Source: a virus. Taken from it: DNA of 64,000 bases. Below are positions 6,401-40,465 of the stretch, one piece after another. The stretch spans positions 53,016 through 117,015 of the IMG/VR virus record IMGVR_UViG_3300039106_000244. One strand, written 5' to 3'. Both the position numbers and the translations under genes were made by a program. Below the pieces are notes generated by a model, which made no database searches, was not told the origin of the DNA, and was given only the letters and a program-made list of their open reading frames with translations. Each line of letters opens with the position of its first letter. The stretch's first letter is position 1.

Positions 6401-9400
6401 CTGCATTAGTTTCTGCATCATCATCAATCCAAATCTTTTCACCTATGTGCCAGCCGTGCGGTGGTACATATAGACGTGCAGTTTCCATGTAATCAAATCG
6501 TAAACTGTGTAAGTTAAATAACATACCATTACCATCAATAGTAGTTAATTGTGCTGTATCTCCAGAATATTTAACTAATATATTTGTAAGATCGAGTACT
6601 TCCTCAACTTGATAGAAGCCATCAAATGCTGTATTAAAATTGCGAGTCATGAACACATCGCCTACAAGTAATCCGTGTAGTTTATTTGTAGTAAATGTTA
6701 TATAACCATCAAGTGAATTAGATACTAAAATAATATTATTGTCAGTTTCTGTTATTCTATAAACATTCCAATTTTGAGTGAAATCTTTGGCGCACCAAAT
6801 AGTATAACCGGTGCCCATTGCATTTAATCTATCATCTAAATTTACAAAATTAGCAAGATCAAATATAGTAGTCGATACATCATTTATATTTACATAACCA
6901 GCAGTTAAAATATCATTACTATAATCACTATGTGCATCTCTGTTTAATGCAATCGTGCCATTATACTGTTCAGTTGATTTATATAATTGTGACTTATTAA
7001 ATATAGTCACACCATTTCCACTAGTATCGGTTACAAATGAAGCTGTTGCAGGATTAACACTAAATGCTTTTTCATCTAATGCAAGTTCTACATATGGATT
7101 TATATTTAATGCACCATACTCACCTGTCCGTATTGCCCACTCTTCGTAAAAATTAATTGAGTTACCGGTATTATTAAATTCTGCATTAATTAATTGATTA
7201 ACTGCATTAGCAGAACCTTTTTGTTTAATGAATCCTTTATATAATTCAATCTGAGTAGTATCACTTAATCCAAGGTCTGCTAAGTATTGACGTGGTTTAA
7301 ATCCAATTAAACCATGACTATATCTGATTTGATCCGAATCATTAAAGGTTGTGTGCGAATTATAATATAATTGAGATTTAGCCGCAATAGTAGCAAAATT
7401 TGGCATTAATCCTTTTTTAATCTCACTTGCTGCAATTTGTTTCCAGTATGCAAACGCAAACTCAATAGTTGCTGATATGTTTTGTAATGCAACATAAAAT
7501 TGATTTTTATATTGTACTAAATCACCTTTTAAATAATCCTTGCCACCTTGCCACACATCTATAGCACCAGAATTATACATAAAGCCCGGTGCATTTAAGC
7601 TGCCATCCCAGTCTGCAGTTTTTTGTCCAATTAATTTTAATCTAAATTGTCTATTGCCAAGTTCGGGTTTATATATTACATCGTTGAATACAGTAGTATT
7701 ATCAAATATCAACACATGTTCATATTGTACTAGATTTAATTCAATGTATCCTATAACCGCATCATTTGTTAATGTTATTTTAAATGAAGTAGGACTACGT
7801 AATACATTATAATTTGTAGTTTTAACTAAAGTAAAATTCTGATCTAACACTCTCGAACCATGTTGATTATCTGTAATTGCATCTGTAATTGCACCTACTG
7901 TAACTACATTCAATACATTAGCAACCGGTGATAATACCAAGATGCTGCCTGCAGCCCAACCTTGTTGTGCCCAAAATATGAATTCTTTAATTGACAATTT
8001 CCAGTTACGTGTTTCGCCTAGTTGTTCATCAGTGTCGTTAAATGTAAACCCTTGTGCCATTAAATGTCGTTCGTAACTAATTAAGAAATCGGCTATTTGT
8101 TGTTGACTATTAAACTCGTATCCATATGGAACTGTTAATTTTAAGTTCTGATAATCTTTAAACACAGTTACAGAATTATTTAATACATTAATTTTATATG
8201 CATTTGAGTTAATTACACTTGGAATAATAGTAAAGTACGGGTTAGATAAATTATATCCACGTACACTATATCCATTTGTAGTTTTTTCAATGATCACGCC
8301 ACTGTATGCTATTTTTTCCACAGGAGTTGATTTATATAAATGTACATTATAATTTTCGTTTGGAATAATAATACTATCATTTGTACTTGTTGGGGAACTT
8401 TGTTCTGCCAATACCTGTAGATATTTTTGATCACTAAATCCTGCCATTTTATATGCAAGATTAATTTCGTAATTTTTTAGTAATGGAGTAATAATAGTAG
8501 ATGGATCAATGCCTTGATTTACTAAGAAATCTGCAATCCAGTTTATATAACCTGCTGTTCTTACTACTGTGCCAGATGATGTATCACCATTAAATGTTAA
8601 TGATGTTTGTTTAATATGATCATTGGTATCAGTTAGATATTGTCCTATATTCTTATTCATTGAATAGCGTGAAACATCTATCAATAAGCCAAAGTATCTA
8701 GCAGGCTTTGCCAATGCAAGTGCTTGTTGCATAGCAAATGGGAAATCACTGCTATTACGCCATGCTGTTTCAACTGGACCTTCGTGTCCTACTGCCCATG
8801 ATGTTGCGGCTCTAATAGAATTAAATGATGCTGTCATAATCGATGCTGGATTCTTTAAGAATCCGTGATCGTCAACTGGGATAGCAGTTGACAGCCCGGG
8901 ACGAATAAAGTTAGGTGCTATACCAGCATTTTCGCCTCTTCTGATTAATCCTGCTTCTAAATCATCCCATAATAATTTATTACCGCCGGTGTATGGTGCA
9001 GGACCGTACTCTTCTTCCCACCAAGCTGGTTTTATCGCAAACCCTAACATTTCCCATGGTGTCTGATGTGGGCGAATTGTATCATAATAATATTGATAAC
9101 ATGCTCGCCAACTACCCGGCAATGCTTCTCCACTAATTCTATCAACAAAGCGACTATAGTTCCATGTAAATGGATCATTACTTTCAAAAGTATCATTTAC
9201 TGTGAAATCAATTTTGTTATTACCTATCCAATTTAAAAAACTCTTAGATAATAATTGATTAACTTCTGTTAATGAATAATCATCATTTCTAAATTTTCCA
9301 GATTTAACAGAATAAATGTCTTGGTAGCTACCATTATCAAGTAATTTAATATTATTGTATATACGTTTTTCTAATTCTAATACAAAATCATCTCTGTAAT

Positions 9401-12400
9401 CACCAAATGCCGGTGTGATACTACCATCGTGACCGCGTATAACATTAATAGTAGTGCGATAAGTATCATCTAAAAAGATTTCTGGTAGAAATTTAGGATA
9501 TAGACCTAATTTAGTAGGTGTCTCCGGAACATAACATCCATTGGTATCGGCATATTCTACTATTTTAATAATATCATCAACTTCTAATGTAACAGTGTTA
9601 GCAATTGTTATTGCCGGGCGGTCTGTATCAAAGGTGTAATCTCTACCTAGCATTAATTGTATATCATTTAAATATACAAGTATCGCCTTGTTACTTAATG
9701 CATACGCATCAAATACTGTAGTAATTTCATACGAACGTACCAATGGGTCAAATACAGTATACCCAGTACCATTAACAATATTTTTTAATGTACCATAGGG
9801 TATCATATCACTATAAAACCAAGGGAATGTTTTATTTTTAATCTTGTTAATTTCTGTTAATATTAAATCTACACTTGAAGCAGGATCAGTTGGCTGTATG
9901 CCAGATAACGTTGCACTTAGTTCTAAGAATTTATTTTTAAATCGTGCATATTCTTGTTGTGCATATCGTGTTGCATCAATGAAATTTGTAGTATCGTTTA
10001 ACAAGAATAATATCGCATTAGATACTGGGGCACTATGTTGTAATATATTACCACCCTGTGATTTAATCTCAATATCTCTGAGATTGCTACTTCCGAATAT
10101 ATCTCCTACTAATTCAGTACTACGTTGACTTAATTCAACTAAATGATTTCTAAGTTGACCAAGGGTCAACGATGTAAGATTAATATTTTGTGCATTTAAA
10201 TCTAAATTTTGAGGAACTTGATATTGTCCTATTTTACTTATTTCATCACTAAAAACTAAAATATCAATCTTATCGCCAATTACAGGAGCAACAGATAATG
10301 TTATTGCATTGTTTATAATCGACCAATTTGATTGTTGTACAAATATGTTATTTTTATAAACCCTAATATGCGGAACTATATCTGATGGTAATACCGTAAC
10401 ATCAATTTTAAATGGACTATTAGTTCCATCATAGTTATAGGTAATAAGTTGTTCCTGATGCAATGGTTCATTTACTGTTGCCCAGTTATTTTTTGGAATA
10501 ACTGTATTTCTATCTACTATTTGTTGTAAAAAACCAGTGGTAATATGTTTGTTATATTGAGTTTGCTCAACAATATAACTAAACATATCTGTATCAAAAT
10601 AATTAGTAAATTCAATATTACCTTGAGTTTGAAATGTTGTATATTTTAATGGAAATGCCAATACTGTATCAATTAACGTACTTGTGCTAGTTCTATTATA
10701 TCCAAATAATTTTGTACCCAAGAATGTACTAGATGAATATAGTGATAAACTTGTTCCATTTGCGTCGTATACATCAAATAACGGATCTTGTTGTAAACCG
10801 GTTTTCTGTTGGCTTTCAATCCATATATCACCATTATACCACCACTGAGTTCCTTTATGAATTCCTGAGGTTACTACTACAGTATCGTATATTTCGTTAG
10901 TGGCATCGTTAGCCGGATTTAAATTTATGTATATAGGACCGGTTAATAATCCATTGGTATCAATTTGAATTTGTACCAAATTAATTACATAGATTTTATT
11001 GCGGACAACAGGATCAATATCAGATGCAAATATAATTCGCATGCCGTCATATAATGTAACCCCAGCAATAACAGTTAATTCTTGACCGTGTAATTCATTA
11101 AATGCATCTCGTGTAGTTGTATCTAAAATACTAATCGCTTGTTTTCCAATTCTACCAAAATTGAATAATTGTAAATCTTCTTCAAATTGTATGATCGGAC
11201 GTTGCGCACGTAAAGTCTGATTATAAATTGGTTGAACACTATTGTATGTCGCAGTGAGACTAATTATCTCACTATGAAACCAACGATTACTACGTGACCA
11301 TGCATTTAAATCTTTGCTTGCTCGATTAATGGTAATATAATCTGCATTAGCAGCATTACCTGGTAGTCCGTTGGGGTAATTTAATGCTATTTCATCATTG
11401 TATAGTTCAGGAGTAACCAATGCTGTTACATCGATTAATCGAATGCCCGCTGATGTTCCTACTCCTTCTACATAATATTCTTTATTCCGATATGCAATAG
11501 GTGTAACATCAGTACTAAAATTTATTTTTAGCCCACTAGTAAACGATATACCGTTAGGACTAGTATACGTTGATTTTCTTAAAATGTCAACTTCTACGTC
11601 GATATCCCACCCGGTTATGTCAACTAGTTTAATTGCAGTATACATCGATGGGTCGGTTCCATCTTGAATATATAATGTATCCTGGATACTTGATATAACT
11701 GGCACAACATGCAAGAAAGTATCATAATCTTTAAAGAATTCTTTATTAGCATTTACAAGTCCTGATCTAATATATACTTTTTCGTCAAGTAATATATCTT
11801 GTATGTGGACTAAACGAATTAATGGGTTTGCCGCTGTAGCATCAACAAATTGTATGCGCCATACTCCAAATCGATCAGCATCTGGAATAATATCTCCGGC
11901 ATTATAGCCAGGAATAGTTAAGTTAGTTACAGGATCGATAACCGCTGGAATTGTCCATGCAGCTTCGCCATAATTAGTTAATAATTCTTGATTAACAAAA
12001 ATCATAGTTTGACCATCAAGTTGGCCAGTGAGTCCCGCATATTGTGGATATGTTTCAATAAATTGACTTAGATATTGATTTTGTATAGTGTCATAGGCTA
12101 TAGGAAGTGCATAATCAACTGACGCTACTACATTCATTGATACATATCTATTTTGTGCAGTTGTTTGCGGAACATTAAATGTAATTGTACCGACGTCTAA
12201 CCCATTATTAACAACACCGAGTACCTCTCGGGTACTAACTGTCGGAGTTGCATTTACTTTCCCATCAATGCCCAGTTCGGTTTGTATCCAAAATCCTATG
12301 CCAGGTTGATTAACTTCAAATGTATACTGGCCTCCACGTGCAAGTATAATTGTATCTTTTATTGTTCCGTTTGCGCTAATGTTGTAACGAACAATATTTG

Positions 12401-12881
12401 TATTACGAGTCACTGTAAATGCAGTTTCTAATTCAACTCCACTTGTATTAACATTAACTGGATCTGGCCCATTTTCTAACCAATAATACTGACTGAAATT
12501 AACAAATTTATCAAATGAAATTTGTGGATCGAAACTATAGTATTCCCCATCGAATAATTTTTTATGATTTGGAGTTAATCCACTATAATATTCAAGTTTA
12601 TTTAATAAATCAACATAACTAGCAAAGAATGTAATTTCCTTCTGATCATTACGAACTACAATGCTCGGCTCAAGTTGATACTTTTGTCTTTCGGCAGAGT
12701 TCTCAATTATATAACTATCTTTGCTTTTATAAGTTGGCGCAAATGTTCTTCCGATATATCCATATATGTTTCTTAAATTTGGCTCTGTTACCAATTGGTC
12801 CATTGTTGCCGATAAAAACTTATTGTTAGTATCAGTTTGGAATATGATAGGAAGTAAATTTGAAGTCTTTTTTGTCGCCAT
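432..12881 (-). CDS. Giant baseplate/tail structural protein (4149 aa) with FG-GAP-like repeats
   Basis: One uninterrupted 12.4-kb frame directly downstream of gp6, where T4 has gp7 and gp8. The N-terminus (residues 1-150, with LLPIIFQTDTNNKFL, YIGRTFAPTY and DKFVNFSQYYWL) resembles the start of very large structural proteins I recall from T4-like cyanophages. Residues about 2190-2860 hold repeated FG-[ST]-x-hydrophobic ... GAP/SAP ... GxVYVY units (for example LGVGAPGDG, YIGAPYYN, IVVSAPSDD), the FG-GAP pattern of integrin-type beta-propellers. Around residue 3510 are GSGYTAEPIVTI and GSGYYVTPTVLI repeats; near 3850 is a GxIRRGTxGT motif common in phage baseplate or fibre proteins. Stop is TAG. 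Probably a baseplate-wedge or fibre-attachment scaffold; that role is inferred from position. Confidence 0.85.
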   Translation of the reverse strand: MATKKTSNLLPIIFQTDTNNKFLSATMDQLVTEPNLRNIYGYIGRTFAPTYKSKDSYIIENSAERQKYQLEPSIVVRNDQKEITFFASYVDLLNKLEYYSGLTPNHKKLFDGEYYSFDPQISFDKFVNFSQYYWLENGPDPVNVNTSGVELETAFTVTRNTNIVRYNISANGTIKDTIILARGGQYTFEVNQPGIGFWIQTELGIDGKVNATPTVSTREVLGVVNNGLDVGTITFNVPQTTAQNRYVSMNVVASVDYALPIAYDTIQNQYLSQFIETYPQYAGLTGQLDGQTMIFVNQELLTNYGEAAWTIPAVIDPVTNLTIPGYNAGDIIPDADRFGVWRIQFVDATAANPLIRLVHIQDILLDEKVYIRSGLVNANKEFFKDYDTFLHVVPVISSIQDTLYIQDGTDPSMYTAIKLVDITGWDIDVEVDILRKSTYTSPNGISFTSGLKINFSTDVTPIAYRNKEYYVEGVGTSAGIRLIDVTALVTPELYNDEIALNYPNGLPGNAANADYITINRASKDLNAWSRSNRWFHSEIISLTATYNSVQPIYNQTLRAQRPIIQFEEDLQLFNFGRIGKQAISILDTTTRDAFNELHGQELTVIAGVTLYDGMRIIFASDIDPVVRNKIYVINLVQIQIDTNGLLTGPIYINLNPANDATNEIYDTVVVTSGIHKGTQWWYNGDIWIESQQKTGLQQDPLFDVYDANGTSLSLYSSSTFLGTKLFGYNRTSTSTLIDTVLAFPLKYTTFQTQGNIEFTNYFDTDMFSYIVEQTQYNKHITTGFLQQIVDRNTVIPKNNWATVNEPLHQEQLITYNYDGTNSPFKIDVTVLPSDIVPHIRVYKNNIFVQQSNWSIINNAITLSVAPVIGDKIDILVFSDEISKIGQYQVPQNLDLNAQNINLTSLTLGQLRNHLVELSQRSTELVGDIFGSSNLRDIEIKSQGGNILQHSAPVSNAILFLLNDTTNFIDATRYAQQEYARFKNKFLELSATLSGIQPTDPASSVDLILTEINKIKNKTFPWFYSDMIPYGTLKNIVNGTGYTVFDPLVRSYEITTVFDAYALSNKAILVYLNDIQLMLGRDYTFDTDRPAITIANTVTLEVDDIIKIVEYADTNGCYVPETPTKLGLYPKFLPEIFLDDTYRTTINVIRGHDGSITPAFGDYRDDFVLELEKRIYNNIKLLDNGSYQDIYSVKSGKFRNDDYSLTEVNQLLSKSFLNWIGNNKIDFTVNDTFESNDPFTWNYSRFVDRISGEALPGSWRACYQYYYDTIRPHQTPWEMLGFAIKPAWWEEEYGPAPYTGGNKLLWDDLEAGLIRRGENAGIAPNFIRPGLSTAIPVDDHGFLKNPASIMTASFNSIRAATSWAVGHEGPVETAWRNSSDFPFAMQQALALAKPARYFGLLIDVSRYSMNKNIGQYLTDTNDHIKQTSLTFNGDTSSGTVVRTAGYINWIADFLVNQGIDPSTIITPLLKNYEINLAYKMAGFSDQKYLQVLAEQSSPTSTNDSIIIPNENYNVHLYKSTPVEKIAYSGVIIEKTTNGYSVRGYNLSNPYFTIIPSVINSNAYKINVLNNSVTVFKDYQNLKLTVPYGYEFNSQQQIADFLISYERHLMAQGFTFNDTDEQLGETRNWKLSIKEFIFWAQQGWAAGSILVLSPVANVLNVVTVGAITDAITDNQHGSRVLDQNFTLVKTTNYNVLRSPTSFKITLTNDAVIGYIELNLVQYEHVLIFDNTTVFNDVIYKPELGNRQFRLKLIGQKTADWDGSLNAPGFMYNSGAIDVWQGGKDYLKGDLVQYKNQFYVALQNISATIEFAFAYWKQIAASEIKKGLMPNFATIAAKSQLYYNSHTTFNDSDQIRYSHGLIGFKPRQYLADLGLSDTTQIELYKGFIKQKGSANAVNQLINAEFNNTGNSINFYEEWAIRTGEYGALNINPYVELALDEKAFSVNPATASFVTDTSGNGVTIFNKSQLYKSTEQYNGTIALNRDAHSDYSNDILTAGYVNINDVSTTIFDLANFVNLDDRLNAMGTGYTIWCAKDFTQNWNVYRITETDNNIILVSNSLDGYITFTTNKLHGLLVGDVFMTRNFNTAFDGFYQVEEVLDLTNILVKYSGDTAQLTTIDGNGMLFNLHSLRFDYMETARLYVPPHGWHIGEKIWIDDDAETNAVQGQPFGTQPSGTWKVYEKTHPWSMGQRLVKNTSEYSANIGFGRSLKMIDNAEQTIFTGTTLYANLSVSTNTGAVNIFEKNASNVYVETTSIIPDGANTFTFGSHIDTAVDSFINDGVDTRETLAISAPTSSGLGGAANVGLMYIYKETASTENWVRGQVIAGNVSATGGKFGTGFAFDELGHWLYVSAPYEATPKVYVYGLQRFVTEATGNVTTSGSVSTITVPFTRDTIVSSTDANSVLVTSATRTYIPRIDYTISGQTITFISGNVNGTFTISQGPYYTLVETISGPAGSEFGYCIDASLNGAQLGVGAPGDGVIGSTGVTLAQAGAVYVYDRVIEAFNSTNGTVYTTQEIIADVHKVTVDDIEIFNYTKTGTNEITLFVPLGVGKVVKIETNKFTLLERLIGIDTLDGSLSAIQAGARFGSALTICSNNCAFYIGAPYYNAGTIYNTGAVWKFHNRGTLYGTNTGYIHNPTFTPGDTIRLDNFQITVTGTSLDSLVQDINDANLLGITAVNEAGYLRLNSDKTVAKNRLRILSASGTVYEDAGMAIFAFMQIIVNPYHSNNEYFGTKVILARNAYMLVISSDRGTTNHYTTFDDGTATTFDNISTAFFDSVNASGSVYTYELYDDPRNAVEHPGRYAFCQQLDPTDLNTGDGFGAAIDVIGGHIVVSAPSDDTTITDGGSIYVFSNPTGKRGWSLLRYQQPTVDIESISRLYLYSNLSNTILKTLEFIDPAKGKISGLAEQEISYKTGYDPAVYNRGTNNAVNLNDNIFWNSNQVGQVWWNLSLLSYIDYEQDTLTYRSINWGKLFPGSIVEVLEWVESAYLPSMYVANGGEGQPKYEDDSAYVELIFVDPITNIIGIKYFYWVKNKTTVDPNNEFRHIPILAVQDIIENPKNQGVPYAAIIQNNALIVYNIVDYLSSQNTILHIDYNTIKNTNIIHSEYELIQKGNADSAISPKIINKLIDSLAGIDILGATVPDPALSTADKFGLGVRPRQTMFIDRFTAWSNLIDYANSVLITTPIARNCDLTNLTASEPQPNIKLGEYDLKIATELELELIDITTLDPGYKILVEQDTTRNNLWVVYELSINNTWEVVKIQSYKTDLYWDYVDWYAPGYGVETQLEYVVDTLTDALKLPVKVGDDVLVRVSRGGDHGWNLLVLNSQNHFDVVGIQNGTVQLKTSNGTLINNTTPTIEVRYIITALRDDIFVGELDSEFNKLFFVVVNYIFNEQKYVDWIFKTSFISVAHTLRTLAQTPNYIKDNQTYYQDYISEVKPYSTKIREYSINYNSTDEYAGNISDFDVPAYYDTDTQIFRSPSGENIIKDEALWQTDTYSQWYANRNYKVESIVVEYSGSGYTAEPIVTIVDGGLAASGATARAIIDFDLGTVIRIDIIAGGSGYYVTPTVLINGSCTTPARAYAMLANNQVRSINTTLKFDRVNYTSSVQEWSANTAYTIGDIVTHTGSLETATRNAYIVTANIVSGSTFIHTTDYTIYNASDFTTANDRITGYYEPGASMPARDLTQLLRGIGYPGVKVQGAGFDQAPGFSGPTPFDEGVFDNIQYDADGLPMLDDYTIDSIIRSDYTDLALGTRAEDINVAGGAYVDTYSSHAPEELVPGIVFDTLDMQVYTKINGNVDVIGYRMFSNMMREESYLRIASAHSTTLASNLAITDTTIVVADASKLTAPFIDTVGLGQIAIPGVIFINGERITYYTRNLLTNTLGQIRRGTQGTGTPALYTAGTLITDGSIDQLVPNVVSNISLSTITPYTVTTTRSYYLSLTGNVSANVGDVITQSVSGASMTVAGIDSVARVLLVIRNNTNSLTYQNNDVALSGNVTVTAGDYITQSSTGANLTVLTSGANVSNISLSYYGITTLTTGKAGGNIAINGSNVAIYPTTITSNVSLSSAIIINGTSTGNVYPLSIVPVGRNDAGNPFVDSNGNVTIAANISLHTTNVWYNLGSGVATDGTGFNGATTAPVTFLKASTATLIAP

Positions 12882-12907
12882 GTTATTATAATCTCAAGTG
12901 TTATATG

Positions 12908-12915
12908 TATTTAAG
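12908..12915 (-). promoter_or_regulatory. Weak late promoter CTTAAATA for the giant gene
   Basis: Keeps the TAAATA core of the late motif, overlaps the gp6 stop codon and lies about 27 nt upstream of the giant gene start. Two mismatches to TATAAATA. Confidence 0.3.
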
Positions 12916-15900
12916 CCAGTACAGTTTGGTTGATTTGCGCCGCAGTAATAGCAGTAATTATTTGCACATTATCTACCGTTGCAGCACTTACAATAATTTC
13001 ATTATAGCTTGCATTAATTTGTAGCAAGCTACCAAATATACTAGATTCGCTAGATGGTACAATTGTAATACTTGCAATATTTGGTGCAAGTACGCTATGC
13101 AAATATGCACTTAACTCACTAAAATAAAATGTTTCGCCAAAGTCCCAATTTGCAACATCAAAATAATTGTTAATTGCAGTAATTACTCCAGTTTTAATAT
13201 CATTATCACTAATAACAATACTGGAATTTTTTACAACTTTAAAGGTTGCTTGTAGTGATGTAGGTGCCTTTGCACCAAATATTGGTTTAAACTTAGCAGG
13301 ATTGTAAATAATAGTATCTGTCAGGTTTTTATAATTATCCAATGTACTAAATTCTGTACTTAGTGATTCTACACTAGGAGCAGTAGGCTCGGCTACTACA
13401 CCAGTAGTATCTCGAATCCATGCTGTATAATCAGTTGAATATTGTTTTGTTAACAAATATAAGTCAATGATATTATTTGGACTAGGGTCAATACGACGAT
13501 AGTTTGGACTATTATGTCTATATTGGAAATATAAATCTTGTCTACCAACTTTTGCAGTGTATCCAGATACTTCAGTTAGTGCATACGATGCACCAGTTAC
13601 TACTAATTGATAAAATTTATTCTCTGGTGCAATATAGAATAGTTGCCCGGATTCATACAAGGTTGAATCAACTTGTGCTTCGATTAATGTTGCATATAAC
13701 GAGTTCACTAGACTATTACTCACTAAAGTTTGTGTAACAAAATTATTATATCCATATGTAGCTTGGAAATATACATATTTGTCTTGACTGTTTATGTCCG
13801 GATTAACAATTAGTTCAAATAATTCCGGATTGTCTAAAATACTATTATTATCGATATCTGCAAATGTAACTAATATTTTACTAGGATTTTCATAGCCATC
13901 AACTTCAATAATGTTTTTATAGATATACCACGTATAATCTAGCGCCAATGGGGTTGAATTGTCTGGGTTGGAATTTACTTTTAATACTTTAATATTATCG
14001 TGTACTGTTAATCCAGTCACCGGGTTATATACCTTTACAGTATTATCAAAATAAAAATTAGTTTCGTTTGCGCTTTCAAATATATAATTCATTCCACAGT
14101 AAGAAACATTATATGTTTGTCCTATCGGTTCAAATCGAATTAACCAACTTGCATCTAACCCGGTACTGCTAGTATTACCAGTATAAGCAAGACTAAACTC
14201 ACCAATATTTAAATCCCCAGGCAATATTATTACCCATGTTGTAGTATTGATATCATATCGTAAACCAAAGTCTTCGTATGCCTGTATATAACCTACTATA
14301 GAATCTACTAGTGCAGGCGAAAACCCTGTGTTAAATACTGCATATACTGTAGTTGCTATTGCACCATTTGGTACTTGTTCACCTAAAACAACCGGACCGG
14401 CGCCTGTTGATAGATTACCAACTCCACCATTTGTACCATCACCAACAACTTGCTGAACTGATGCATATATGTAATATTTGTCGCCTGCTTTACTAGGGGT
14501 ACCTGTTTGGATACTATTTCGTGAATCAAAATAGTTTCCAGTACCTGCACTAAATTTAATTATAGAATTTTGTTTAATATATCTATTATTATTTGCAACT
14601 ACGTCGCCTATTTGTAGTATAGCATTATTTGAATCTACTAGATATCCAGTGGTTCCATTTGTTACTGTAGTTGAATGGTGCCAGTATGCATCACTAATAG
14701 TAATAGTAGGATATTTGCTGTAAAAAAATTGTAATGTTTCTTGTGATGAAACAATTGGGTTTACTTTATTATAAATTGCTTTGTAAATATCATTTTTTGT
14801 ATTATAATCAAACGAAAAGGTGTTAATAAATGGGTCACGATATAATACACCGTCTTCAGCAAAGATGTTTGTACTTGAATATTTTCCAGTTGTATCAACC
14901 ACATCTAAATAACGACTAATACCACTCGATGTACGGTTAACTGCCTTAACTTTAAGTATATTACTAAACAATGTATATGGAAGAATATTATAATCTTCGC
15001 CTGTTACCATACGATCTTGTGTATAATATTGTTGTGGTGCTTTTTGACGTATATCTTCAAGTGATTCACGTGAGCTAGCATTAGCAACTGTATAACGCAA
15101 ACTTGCACGTATAGTCATAGTTTCGACTCTACCAGTTCTACTTGTATAATTAACAGGCAGGACCATACCTTGCATTTCATCTGGTGTGATTTTATAATCG
15201 GCACCGTTGCTTACTCTGTAATATAATCTATAGTTACCTTGTGGAATATTTGCGAACGCACCATCGCCAAATACTAAGTCAATTTGATCGCTTGCACGAG
15301 TATTAACTTGATAGATAGATTTGCTAGAACTTTTGTTGTAGATAACATTAGTATTACCCACCGACGGTACTTGTGTCCATAATGCACTTGGTTGACTTTG
15401 TGAATCTAAACTATACAACCAAATATCGGTATTATTAATGTTATCTACATTAATACTATATACGCGATTTGGTGTGCTCTCTTGGAATGTGAAATCAATC
15501 GTTTTTAATTCGCCTTGTTTAAAATACGTAAAGAACCCAGTATTTGTACTTGTATTACCTAAATTATCATTTTTATACAATAGATTAAATGGCTGACCTG
15601 GCAACGGTGCGCTTTCGTATATATAAGTTTTTCCAACACTTGTTGGACTAACCATTTCAAATTTAGTAGTTGTGCCTTCAATTTTAGTTGTAAAACTATA
15701 CGTCGCAATAATGCCAGGTACTAAATTTATTTGATATTCATCATTAGTTATACCATTAATAAGTTGAGTGCTACCGGGTTTACCAATCGATTGTGTCGAC
15801 AATAGTCCGGCATTAATTATTGCTGTAAATTGTTCATACCAATTATCGTTTGCTGAATCTGACCAATCAATTACTAACCCTGCTAAATTAATACCATTGC

Positions 15901-38510: not shown

Positions 38511-39686
38511 ATGACAACCCAACTATTAGAAGGCCGTTGGAACGAAACTAAGGATGCCCTGTTAGAAGGTCTACAAGGTTCAAAACGTTCTACTATGGCT
38601 GTAATTTTAGAAAACACACGTAAGCATTTGACAGAAAACGCAACAGCTGGTGCTACAGCAGTAGGTAACGTAGCAACATTAAATCGCGTAATTCTTCCAG
38701 TGATTCGTCGTGTAATGCCAACAGTTATTGCAAATGAAATCGTTGGTGTACAACCAATGACAGGTCCAGTTGCACAAATCCATACATTACGTGTACGTTA
38801 CGCTGATAGCGTTTCTGCAGGTACTTCTGGTGCTGATGCAGCAGTTGCTGGCGGTGAAGCTCTATCACCATTCAACATTGCAACAACATACTCAGGTGCA
38901 TCAACTGGTAAAGCTACTTCAACAGCTTCATTAGAAGGTGTTGCTGGTAACCGTATCAATGTACAAATCTTGAAACAAGTTGTTGAAGCTAAAACACGTA
39001 AACTAAGCGCACGTTGGACTTTTGAGGCAGCTCAAGATGCACAATCAATGCACGGTTTAGATGTTGAAGCAGAAATCATGGCAGCTTTAGCACAAGAAAT
39101 TACTGTTGAAATCGATCAAGAAGTTTTAGCTTCATTAACATCATTAGCTTCAACAGCTTCTGACAACTACAACCAAGCTACTGTTTCTGGTACTGCTACA
39201 TTCGTTGGTGACGAACACGCTGCTTTAGCTGTTTTAATCAACCGTTCTGCTAACAAAATTGCACAACGTACACGTCGTGGCGCTGGTAACTGGGCAGTTG
39301 TAAGTCCATCAGCTTTAACAGTGTTACAATCTGCAACTACTTCAGCTTTTGCTCGTAGTACAGAAGGTACATTTGAAGCTCCTACAAACACTAAATTCGT
39401 TGGTACTTTAAACAGTGCTATGAAAGTTTATGTTAACACATACGCTTCAAACGACACAGTGTTAGTTGGTTACAAAGGTTCTTCAGAATCAGACGCAGCA
39501 GCGTTTTACTGCCCATACGTTCCATTAATGAGTTCTGGTGTTGTGTTAGATCCATCAACATTCGAACCAGTAGTGGGCTTTATGACACGTTATGGTTATG
39601 TTGAATTAAGTAACACTGCATCATCTCTTGGTAATGCAGCTGATTACTTAGAAAAAATCACAGTAGCAAATCTATCATTCCAATAA
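38511..39686 (+). CDS. gp23: Major capsid protein gp23-like
   Basis: A 391-residue HK97-fold capsid protein. The conserved block TAGATAVGNVATLNRVILPV and IRRVMPTVIANEIVGVQPM with FYCPYVPLMSS and FMTRYGYVELS is the classic gp23 signature. T4 gp23 is 521 residues; this short form is usual in aquatic T4-like phages. The likely gp21 cleavage region is around LTENATAG (residues about 40-48). An AAAAGGAAAAT leader precedes the ATG, and a strong bidirectional terminator follows. Codons are more uniform than in neighbours, as expected for the most expressed gene. Confidence 0.97.
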   Translation: MTTQLLEGRWNETKDALLEGLQGSKRSTMAVILENTRKHLTENATAGATAVGNVATLNRVILPVIRRVMPTVIANEIVGVQPMTGPVAQIHTLRVRYADSVSAGTSGADAAVAGGEALSPFNIATTYSGASTGKATSTASLEGVAGNRINVQILKQVVEAKTRKLSARWTFEAAQDAQSMHGLDVEAEIMAALAQEITVEIDQEVLASLTSLASTASDNYNQATVSGTATFVGDEHAALAVLINRSANKIAQRTRRGAGNWAVVSPSALTVLQSATTSAFARSTEGTFEAPTNTKFVGTLNSAMKVYVNTYASNDTVLVGYKGSSESDAAAFYCPYVPLMSSGVVLDPSTFEPVVGFMTRYGYVELSNTASSLGNAADYLEKITVANLSFQ

Positions 39687-39712: not shown

Positions 39713-39738
39713 AAAAAAGCCCCGCAAGGGGCTTTTTT
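39713..39738. terminator. Bidirectional rho-independent terminator after gp23
   Basis: Eleven-base-pair stem AAAAAAGCCCC / GGGGCTTTTTT with loop GCAA; ends gp23 on the plus strand and the amber-interrupted gene on the minus strand. Confidence 0.92.
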
Positions 39739-39746
39739 GTTGACTG

Positions 39747-40322
39747 TCAATCTTCCTCATACCAATCATCATCGTCTTCGTCGTAATAACGTTCATCTAT
39801 GTAACTTCCTTTCTTATCATAGTCTTGATAGTATGCTTCGTTTGGTGTCATGATACGGAACTTACCCGCATACTTCATAGCCGCTATAGTTACTTCGTAT
39901 TTGTCTAATAAGTCGCATACAATAAAGCTACTGCCACATCCACCTACTATACGCTTAATAGGACTGTACTTAAATTCATCTGCTTGTAAAGCTCGATGAA
40001 ATTCACCTCCGCCGTTGGCAATGATACGAGCATGTACTATTTTAGGGTGTGGTAAGTTACGGTCTAAAAATTTAAGTTTAGAGATAGTAGCATTGTTATC
40101 CGAGTCAATAACAAGTTTACACTTTTTAAATTTTAGGGAACCTTTTGTGTGCGGATTGTCACTTGTCTCCTTTGTGCTCCAAGGAATATTAGCATCCACG
40201 TGGTTGACATATAGAGTTACCCCATGTGCTTTGAGAACCCACATAGGAATTGTTGGGTCTTCGAGGTGCTTTTTGTTGAAATGAAAAACTAGGTCTTTTA
40301 CTTGATATTCAATCTATAACAT
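39747..40322 (-). CDS. Conserved T4-like protein with in-frame UAG at codon 3
   Basis: The uninterrupted ORF begins at ATG 40244 (165 residues, MWVLKAHGVTLYVNHVDANI), but coding similarity clearly continues upstream in frame: YQVKDLVFHFNKKHLEDPTI P then MWVL. No ATG, GTG or TTG lies between 40244 and an in-frame TAG at 40314-40316. Two codons before that TAG is an ATG (40320-40322) with AAGGA at proper spacing, so the natural gene reads ATG TTA TAG ATT GAA. Proteins of this family (WSTKETSDNPHTKGSLKFKK) occur near gp23 in T4-like aquatic phages; function unknown. The C-terminus is very acidic (DEDDDDWYEED). A tRNA-like gene with anticodon CUA lies just upstream on the same strand. Confidence 0.75.
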
Positions 40323-40343
40323 TTTAATTTCCTTATAAAAAAG

Positions 40344-40351
40344 TATTTAGT
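40344..40351 (-). promoter_or_regulatory. Late-type promoter ACTAAATA between tRNA and amber gene
   Basis: Six of eight match; predicted start about 40338 gives a 16-nt leader containing AAGGA before ATG 40322. Confidence 0.4.
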
Positions 40352-40353
40352 TA

Positions 40354-40427
40354 TGGTGCGTTAGGTGGGATTCAAACCCACTATCTTCGGCTTTAGAGAC
40401 CGTTGCTAGTCGTATAGCTTCTAACGC
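40354..40427 (-). tRNA. tRNA-like gene, anticodon CUA (putative amber suppressor)
   Basis: 74 nt fold as a cloverleaf: acceptor GCGTTAG/CTAACGC, discriminator A, encoded CCA; D arm GCTA/TAGC; anticodon arm CGGT/GCCG (plus an A-A mismatch) with loop CTCTAAA, so U33 and anticodon CUA at 34-36; variable loop AGATA; T arm GTGGG/CCCAC with loop TTTGAAT. Oddities: the D loop is only six bases and lacks G18-G19, and T-loop C56 is T. The anticodon-arm region resembles tRNA-Arg(UCU), from which it could derive. A TATAAATA promoter ends five bases before its first base. CUA would read UAG; charging and activity are unproven. Confidence 0.72.
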
Positions 40428-40431
40428 AATA

Positions 40432-40439
40432 TATTTATA
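40432..40439 (-). promoter_or_regulatory. Late promoter TATAAATA at the tRNA
   Basis: Perfect consensus. With -6 at 40432 the start is about 40426-40427, the first base of the tRNA, so little or no 5' processing would be needed. Confidence 0.7.
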
Positions 40440-40465
40440 TTAACATTAATAATACACAAAGTCAA
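40437..40465 (-). promoter_or_regulatory. Sigma-70-like promoter overlapping the late promoter
   Basis: TTGACT (40465-40460), 17-bp spacer, TAATAT (40442-40437). Could give early expression of the tRNA. Confidence 0.45.

Follow-up and report, generated by a model that had tools for sequence, protein, structure and literature searches.

We focused on a tRNA gene and the reading frame that follows it on the minus strand of the window. The window is the whole 64-kb stretch of viral DNA analysed here and is part of a 117,015-bp IMG/VR virus record. Features of the locus are collected in Table 1. The original prediction described a cloverleaf with anticodon CUA, followed after 31 bp by an AAGGA motif, ATG, TTA and TAG. 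The sequence confirmed this arrangement, with the ATG 3' of the tRNA on the same strand. We use the term gate for the start codon, any intervening codons and the early in-frame stop. The adjoining gene (38511–39686) resembles by eye that for a T4-type major capsid protein, a putative assignment.

Table 1. Features of the gated locus (positions in the window).
Feature	Position	Strand	Basis and remarks
Sigma-70-like promoter, TTGACT-17-TAATAT	40437..40465	(-)	Consensus scan, match only
tRNA, anticodon CUA (amber suppressor), CCA encoded	40354..40427	(-)	Rfam RF00005; counterparts in relatives
Shine-Dalgarno, AAGGA	40330..40334	(-)	Sequence; 7 nt before ATG
Gate, ATG TTA TAG (start, one sense codon, in-frame amber)	40314..40322	(-)	Sequence; ATG at 40322, TAG at 40316-40314; TAG conserved in relatives
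Remainder of gated gene, 188 codons and TGA	39747..40313	(-)	Protein family FHFNK; alignment of 44 relatives; TGA at 39749-39747
Terminator-like hairpin after gene, AAAAAAGCCCC-TTGC-GGGGCTTTTTT	39713..39738	(-)	Read from sequence; not listed by consensus scan

The predicted tRNA was borne out by the Rfam covariance model RF00005, which matched 40427–40357 on the minus strand (49.7 bits versus a gathering threshold of 29; E=1.2e-7 for the window). No other RNA family match was found within the 64 kb. The encoded CCA carries the tRNA end from 40357 to 40354. The acceptor stem (GCGTTAG/CTAACGC) is fully paired and the loop CTCTAAA presents the anticodon CUA. ARAGORN, at default settings, did not call the tRNA, presumably owing to the absence of two elements of the canonical tertiary core, the D-loop GG and T8 (U8). 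Ordinary tRNAs are stabilised by these elements. Among 104 distinct CUA tRNAs from relatives, 95 have the D-loop GG. Acceptor pairs in this set were 95–100% paired, with both sides varying, which indicates that the CUA tRNAs are real tRNAs. The tRNAs examined had short variable loops. Nearest-neighbour comparison of sequences gave a weak enrichment for the Lys isotype; the amino acid used for charging may lean, weakly, to Lys.

The promoter-like site ends 9 bp 5' of the tRNA. It has 9 of 12 consensus bases, and TG before the second hexamer, in a scan with high background. A relative, L001, has TTGACT-17-TATAAT at the corresponding place. Because of the promoter-like site and this counterpart, the tRNA and the gated gene are probably one transcript. 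Separately, four relatives have the freshwater-2 RNA motif (RF02980) shortly upstream of their CUA tRNA and in the opposite orientation: L001 (2681–2755), L020 (2570–2648), L038 (2481–2561) and L040 (2479–2559), in each on the minus strand.

The open frame had been given as 191 codons. That figure holds when counted from the ATG with the TAG included; beyond the TAG the count is 188. Between the TAG and the first in-frame start (ATG 40244) there are 23 codons, rather than 24, and none of these is ATG, GTG or TTG, as predicted. There is no Shine-Dalgarno sequence at ATG 40244. An AlphaFold2 model of the protein (mean pLDDT 84) consists of an N-terminal beta domain and a C-terminal half with ferredoxin-like order of strands and helices; residues after the TAG form its first beta strand. 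The protein had no significant match in Pfam, PHROGs or the PDB, and a Foldseek search of solved structures returned nothing significant. A search of genome contigs with the FHFNK profile found no relative and hence no host was learned.

Scans of viral contigs identified approximately 140 related loci. The gate TAG precedes a conserved motif, ...VFHFNKKHLED..PMW. After identical proteins were removed, and genes selected as TAG-gated, 70 distinct genes were obtained. In all 70 the gate is TAG, never TAA or TGA, 1–9 codons into the frame. Homologue lists made without this selection had TAA or TGA at the gate position in no case. Among stand-alone genes of the first set whose start could be read, all but L009 have a TAG soon after the ATG. 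Of the 70 genes, 68 have a Shine-Dalgarno-like site ahead of the matching ATG. The span from ATG to TAG, both included, is 1–9 codons, most commonly ATG and one further codon; where it was counted as one codon the nearest ATG was used, and a further ATG with a Shine-Dalgarno site lies upstream. Owing to shared ancestry, the 70 genes cannot be counted as 70 separate events. Independent evidence comes from there being two gene families and several phage groups, from the operon pattern and from the change between TAG and TGA, all described below.

Between ATG and TAG, residues vary in number and kind. After the TAG, residues are conserved and synonymous change is free: for example, an H (CAT 33, CAC 37) and an F (TTC 37, TTT 33) are invariant in 70/70. 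The codons after the TAG are under selection at the protein level. The view that they are genuine coding sequence was therefore upheld; residues 4–26 of the window protein are conserved with abundant synonymous change and include the first strand of the model, and homologues starting at MWVL, the case that would have spoken for a later start, were not seen. A sequencing or assembly error, also raised initially, was ruled out because the TAG is kept in 70 distinct genes on many contigs. By the same comparisons, the gate TAG is selected. In Rhizobium phage RHph_I1_18, a gated FHFNK gene has a CUA tRNA just downstream, and no gene is annotated there. A separate 221-codon ORF (L146, 3119) has the same gate, ATG GCA TAG, followed by IEYSS; by its appearance we take it to be a putative GIY-YIG homing endonuclease.

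The base 3' of the TAG is A in 66 genes and G in four, with no pyrimidine (n=70). A purine here is a context that favours amber suppression. The codon after the TAG is ATT in 50/70, ATC in 9, ACT in 3, AAA in 2 and GTA in 2, and ATA, AAC, GTC and GTT also occur. AUU is a known rare start codon (infC). The frequency of ATT would suit ribosomes that stop at the TAG and then reinitiate, or start on a non-AUG codon, with the tRNA unrelated; so would the GTG that, in mycobacteriophages, follows the TAG with good Shine-Dalgarno spacing. However, the Shine-Dalgarno sequence is 7 nt from the ATG but 16 nt from the AUU. Reinitiation also needs neither TAG over TAA and TGA, nor a CUA tRNA, nor the joint switch to TGA and UCA described below. 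As a general explanation, reinitiation or an AUU start is ruled out by the variable codon after the TAG, and the AUU start at codon 4 that had been offered as an alternative fails with it. Together, TAG conservation, coding constraint after the TAG and the lack of a Shine-Dalgarno sequence at ATG 40244 make an internal or AUU start very unlikely. We give this whole account a very low probability.

Gate and tRNA tend to occur together. In the first 88 loci, a CUA tRNA was present in 60 of the 60 holding any ARAGORN tRNA. Rfam and whole-record searches supplied further CUA tRNAs beyond those called by ARAGORN on the loci, and one was found for 65 of the 70 distinct gated genes. Relatives that keep the TAG without any CUA tRNA, foreseen as evidence against suppression, are thus rare. 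The tRNA is on the strand of the gene in 48/48 cases measured; in 46 it lies upstream, and the median distance is 303 bp. The genes for which none was detected are L028 and L039 (contigs of 4–6.5 kb), L124 (11 kb), L142 (28.5 kb) and L119. In L142, a tRNA whose loop has 8 nt, GCCCTAAC, does precede the gate by about 180 bp. L119 belongs to record G029 (150 kb, linear), in which the gate is present and no CUA tRNA was found among approximately 31 tRNAs. Conversely, Stenotrophomonas siphophage DLP5 (L330/L331) encodes a CUA tRNA, yet a scan made as a blind prediction found no gate there. So, some phage suppressor tRNAs do not have this gate as their target.

The cases of DLP5 and G029 would also fit a stop that is leaky by itself. 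Near-cognate host tRNAs, which do read UAG at a low level, would then provide readthrough and the phage CUA tRNA would serve something else. Set against this are the tight co-occurrence and same-strand adjacency of the CUA tRNA, the covariation of stop and anticodon, and phage RaK2, which is ungated and has no suppressor tRNA that we could see (both below). We hold a leaky stop to be most improbable.

Other RNAs were observed near some gated genes. Phage-borne tmRNAs lie directly or closely downstream of the gated gene in L086 (3570–3864), L059 (3791–4259), L032 (605–993), L036 (567–955) and L073 and L076 (4426–4870). They match permuted and betaproteobacterial Rfam models. A GOLLD RNA is present at 7280–7740 of L126, from a gated phage with many tRNAs.

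Records were also scanned blindly for the pattern itself: a Shine-Dalgarno sequence, an ATG, a few codons, any stop and then an open frame of at least 60 codons that does not overlap a longer ORF. The 117,015-bp record gave exactly one match, the gated gene of the window. Hence, the arrangement is not due to chance. Across 1.42 Mb of related loci, the scan returned 83 matches with TAG, 1 with TAA and 2 with TGA. For Xanthomonas phage XacN1 (320 kb scanned), there was one TAG match and one TAA match. The former, ATG AAG TAG, heads ORF364, which holds a domain like peptidyl-tRNA hydrolase 2 (Pth2) and has its annotated start after the TAG. Other whole records gave a few unrelated TAG, TAA and TGA matches, equivalent to background.

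The single match in the record bears on whether UAG might encode an amino acid throughout the genome (code 15 or pyrrolysine), the gate being one of many such codons. CUA tRNAs are a hallmark of code 15 phages, and the Pth2 gene of the huge phage LR756501 includes a second, internal TAG. However, TAG terminates 13 of the 88 non-overlapping ORFs of at least 120 aa in the window's record, 10 of the 13 having a second in-frame stop within 15 codons. This is not the pattern of code 15, in which many genes use UAG as a sense codon and genes tend not to end in it. PylS (TIGR02367) had no match above cut-off in 8 records, all from phages, and pyrrolysine was rejected on this ground. Whole-genome recoding was rejected for the window's record, as the original prediction had argued from TAG-ended genes, and we consider it scarcely credible.

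Two further observations concern TAG-ended genes and synthetases. In G000, three TAG-ended genes (89744–90385, 95719–96303 and 11369–11782) have, at the fourth codon in the same frame, the ATG with which the next gene begins; if suppressed, these TAGs would let each gene be fused with its neighbour. In G034, a phage with two gated genes, a 226-aa ORF (12619–13149) has a weak class II synthetase-like match, scoring 20 bits to PylS, below cut-off.

These results go beyond what was first proposed. A second gene family, Pth2, is also gated, and one phage pairs a UGA stop with a UCA tRNA. One group of large phages has an FHFNK gene that is free of the TAG and is the second of an overlapping pair. 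The first gene of the pair encodes Pth2 (PF01981) and is itself gated (ATG ACT TAG, ATG AAA TAG or similar), with a CUA tRNA just upstream. PF01981 scores for this second family are 37.9 bits in L165, 29.7 in L184 and 60.6 in Sinorhizobium phage Phosso, versus a cut-off of 23. By contrast, the window's own protein is not detectably Pth2. Pfam gave no match to PF01981, hhalign against Pth2 was negative, as was the search of PDB folds, and on these results we rejected it as a Pth2. In a search of viral folds Pth2 appeared at rank 22, weakly and not significantly, and we claim no kinship.

Gated Pth2-type genes were found in jumbo phages and in phages that have been cultured. Acinetobacter phage ME3 has the gate ATG ACT TAG with a CUA tRNA upstream. 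The gate of Serratia phage BF is ATG ACG CAC TAG; the 108 codons after its TAG include no ATG, GTG or TTG, and the gene is unannotated. Similar genes are present in Cronobacter phage GAP32, Pectobacterium phage CBB, Salmonella phage Arash and the huge phages LR756500, LR756504 and others, and together with a CUA tRNA in Stenotrophomonas phage CM1 and Phosso. The FHFNK gene adjoins Pth2 in several phages. In L145, L009, L175, Phosso and the jumbo group, FHFNK lacks the TAG and the upstream Pth2 gene has it, which resolves these apparent exceptions. In L152 the two genes are separate and both are gated. Hence, the gate tends to sit on the first gene of a Pth2/FHFNK module.

Mycobacteriophages are a less clear case. 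In Myrna, Alice, ScoobyDoobyDoo, Phabba and Blubba (L202, L205–L208), Pth2 is headed by ATG or GTG, TAG and GTG. A CUA tRNA follows Pth2 in Myrna, Alice, ScoobyDoobyDoo and Blubba, and Alice has a tmRNA gene near Pth2 and the CUA tRNA. In cluster C phages the GTG just after the TAG has the better Shine-Dalgarno spacing. We judge the TAG of these cluster C phages, although conserved, to be ambiguous, since the GTG can serve as the start and readthrough is not required. Separately, tRNAs with anticodon UUA, which would read UAA, were noted at L215 (3405–3481) and at L340 (16611–16685; Stenotrophomonas phage CM1 at about 176.6 kb), possibly an ochre version; in LR745208 the UUA tRNA is beside Pth2. 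No TAA gate was seen alongside these UUA tRNAs.

If the tRNA reads the stop, stop and anticodon should change together. Phosso combines a TAG gate with a CUA tRNA. In Agrobacterium phage Atu_ph07, the ortholog of the Phosso gene (approximately 72% identical) is headed by ATG ATT GGC GAA CAC TTT TGA. This phage encodes a 75-nt tRNA with anticodon UCA, far from the gate, and no CUA tRNA was found in the stretches holding its tRNAs. The UCA tRNA was reported as an opal suppressor by those who described the phage (PMC6102473). In Klebsiella phage RaK2, the relative is ungated. ARAGORN found no suppressor tRNA around the Rfam tRNA matches of RaK2, where one weak match (30 bits) was left untyped. 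Decoding of the stop by the tRNA predicts such covariation, seen here in a single TGA case; on other grounds it would be hard to explain.

We think it very probable that, in phages without general recoding of TAG, synthesis of a small translation-related module is gated by an early stop that a dedicated suppressor tRNA decodes. This reading draws on comparison of sequences: conservation of the gate, the matching tRNA, one covariation of stop and anticodon, and selection on the codons after the stop. The window has each element of a suppressor-gated gene, namely an ATG with a Shine-Dalgarno sequence, few codons, an in-frame stop, a conserved ORF and a matching suppressor tRNA. In outline, the phage would make the dedicated tRNA (here CUA), probably co-transcribed with the gated gene. 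Ribosomes would initiate at the ATG supported by the Shine-Dalgarno sequence, read one to a few codons and meet the in-frame amber. Without charged suppressor tRNA, release factor 1 would end synthesis immediately and at little cost. When charged tRNA is available, an amino acid would be inserted at the amber and the complete protein produced. The gated module would be Pth2, the FHFNK protein or both. Charging of the tRNA, its reading of the stop in vivo and control as the purpose of the gate are our inferences. The original proposal was of a switch in a non-recoded genome, the full-length protein depending on amber suppression by a tRNA of the phage itself; it is supported, and the role as a switch is presumed.

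Control could instead act on the mRNA. Termination at the early UAG would uncover a terminator or processing site that suppression would cover. An arrangement of this attenuator-like kind was seen in L009 (approximately 2240–2345), where a duplicated leader, ATG TTG TAG ATT, precedes a terminator-like hairpin before the gated Pth2. In the window no such hairpin was noticed between the gate and the body of the gene, and the stop shares the reading frame of the protein. We regard attenuation as unlikely; as it is a variant of suppression, its probability overlaps with that of suppression in general.

Why would decoding of a stop be placed under selection? Residues before the stop are unconserved while the stop is kept, so the decoding event, and not the inserted residue, seems to be selected. 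Enzymes of the Pth2 family remove peptides from tRNAs that have dropped off the ribosome. Because of the pattern of conservation, the most likely purpose of the gate would be to couple output of the peptidyl-tRNA-clearing module to the activity of the suppressor tRNA. A link of timing or feedback between the two is plausible. A more specific possibility, which we put forward tentatively and with some doubt, is a homeostat. The stop at the head of the Pth2 module would measure suppressor-tRNA activity, and the product would limit the damage from, or level of, suppression. This may represent an undescribed class of translational switch, common to many large phages that infect Gram-negative bacteria and perhaps to mycobacteriophages.

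The gate can be compared with known systems. An early in-frame UGA in prfB, encoding RF2, autoregulates a translation factor via +1 frameshifting. Both systems would use an early in-frame stop to control a translation factor according to decoding conditions; here, a dedicated tRNA would read the stop in frame. Pyrrolysine and selenocysteine are inserted by special tRNAs at stop codons in few genes, which the present system resembles. However, there is no PylS above cut-off in the eight records, and variable loops of the tRNAs examined are short. The stop sits at an unconserved N-terminus, so the inserted residue itself is unlikely to matter. Suppressor tRNAs of code 15 phages, including crAss-like phages, have been proposed to have a regulatory role (PMC9523058, PMC10879173). 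As in those phages, a phage CUA tRNA would decode UAG in phage genes. The difference is that UAG is sense in many code 15 phage genes, whereas here it is a normal terminator and one or two genes have a single early stop.

Many phages without recoded stops have annotated suppressor tRNAs, and earlier papers sought the target of such tRNAs. Two CUA tRNAs were reported in XacN1 and no target was found (PMC5852040). The target of the Summit suppressor tRNA was likewise sought and not found (PMC9022506). The suppressor tRNAs of XacN1, Atu_ph07 and Summit are of the same kind as that described here. We propose the gates of XacN1 ORF364 and Atu_ph07 pth2 as targets; no gate was found in DLP5, which is related to Summit. 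We found no description of such a gate in the open-access papers searched. The gate is likely to be the specific, conserved target of suppressor tRNAs in non-recoded phages. It explains why some genes, including those of Serratia phage BF and RHph_I1_18, are truncated or missed by annotation, and provides a natural tRNA-operated gate amenable to a simple reporter. Our data point to a phage module for translation maintenance, comprising Pth2, the FHFNK protein, the CUA tRNA and sometimes a tmRNA. Many large bacterial viruses have one or two genes with an early conserved stop and their own matching tRNA, the product apparently being made only when that tRNA is active.
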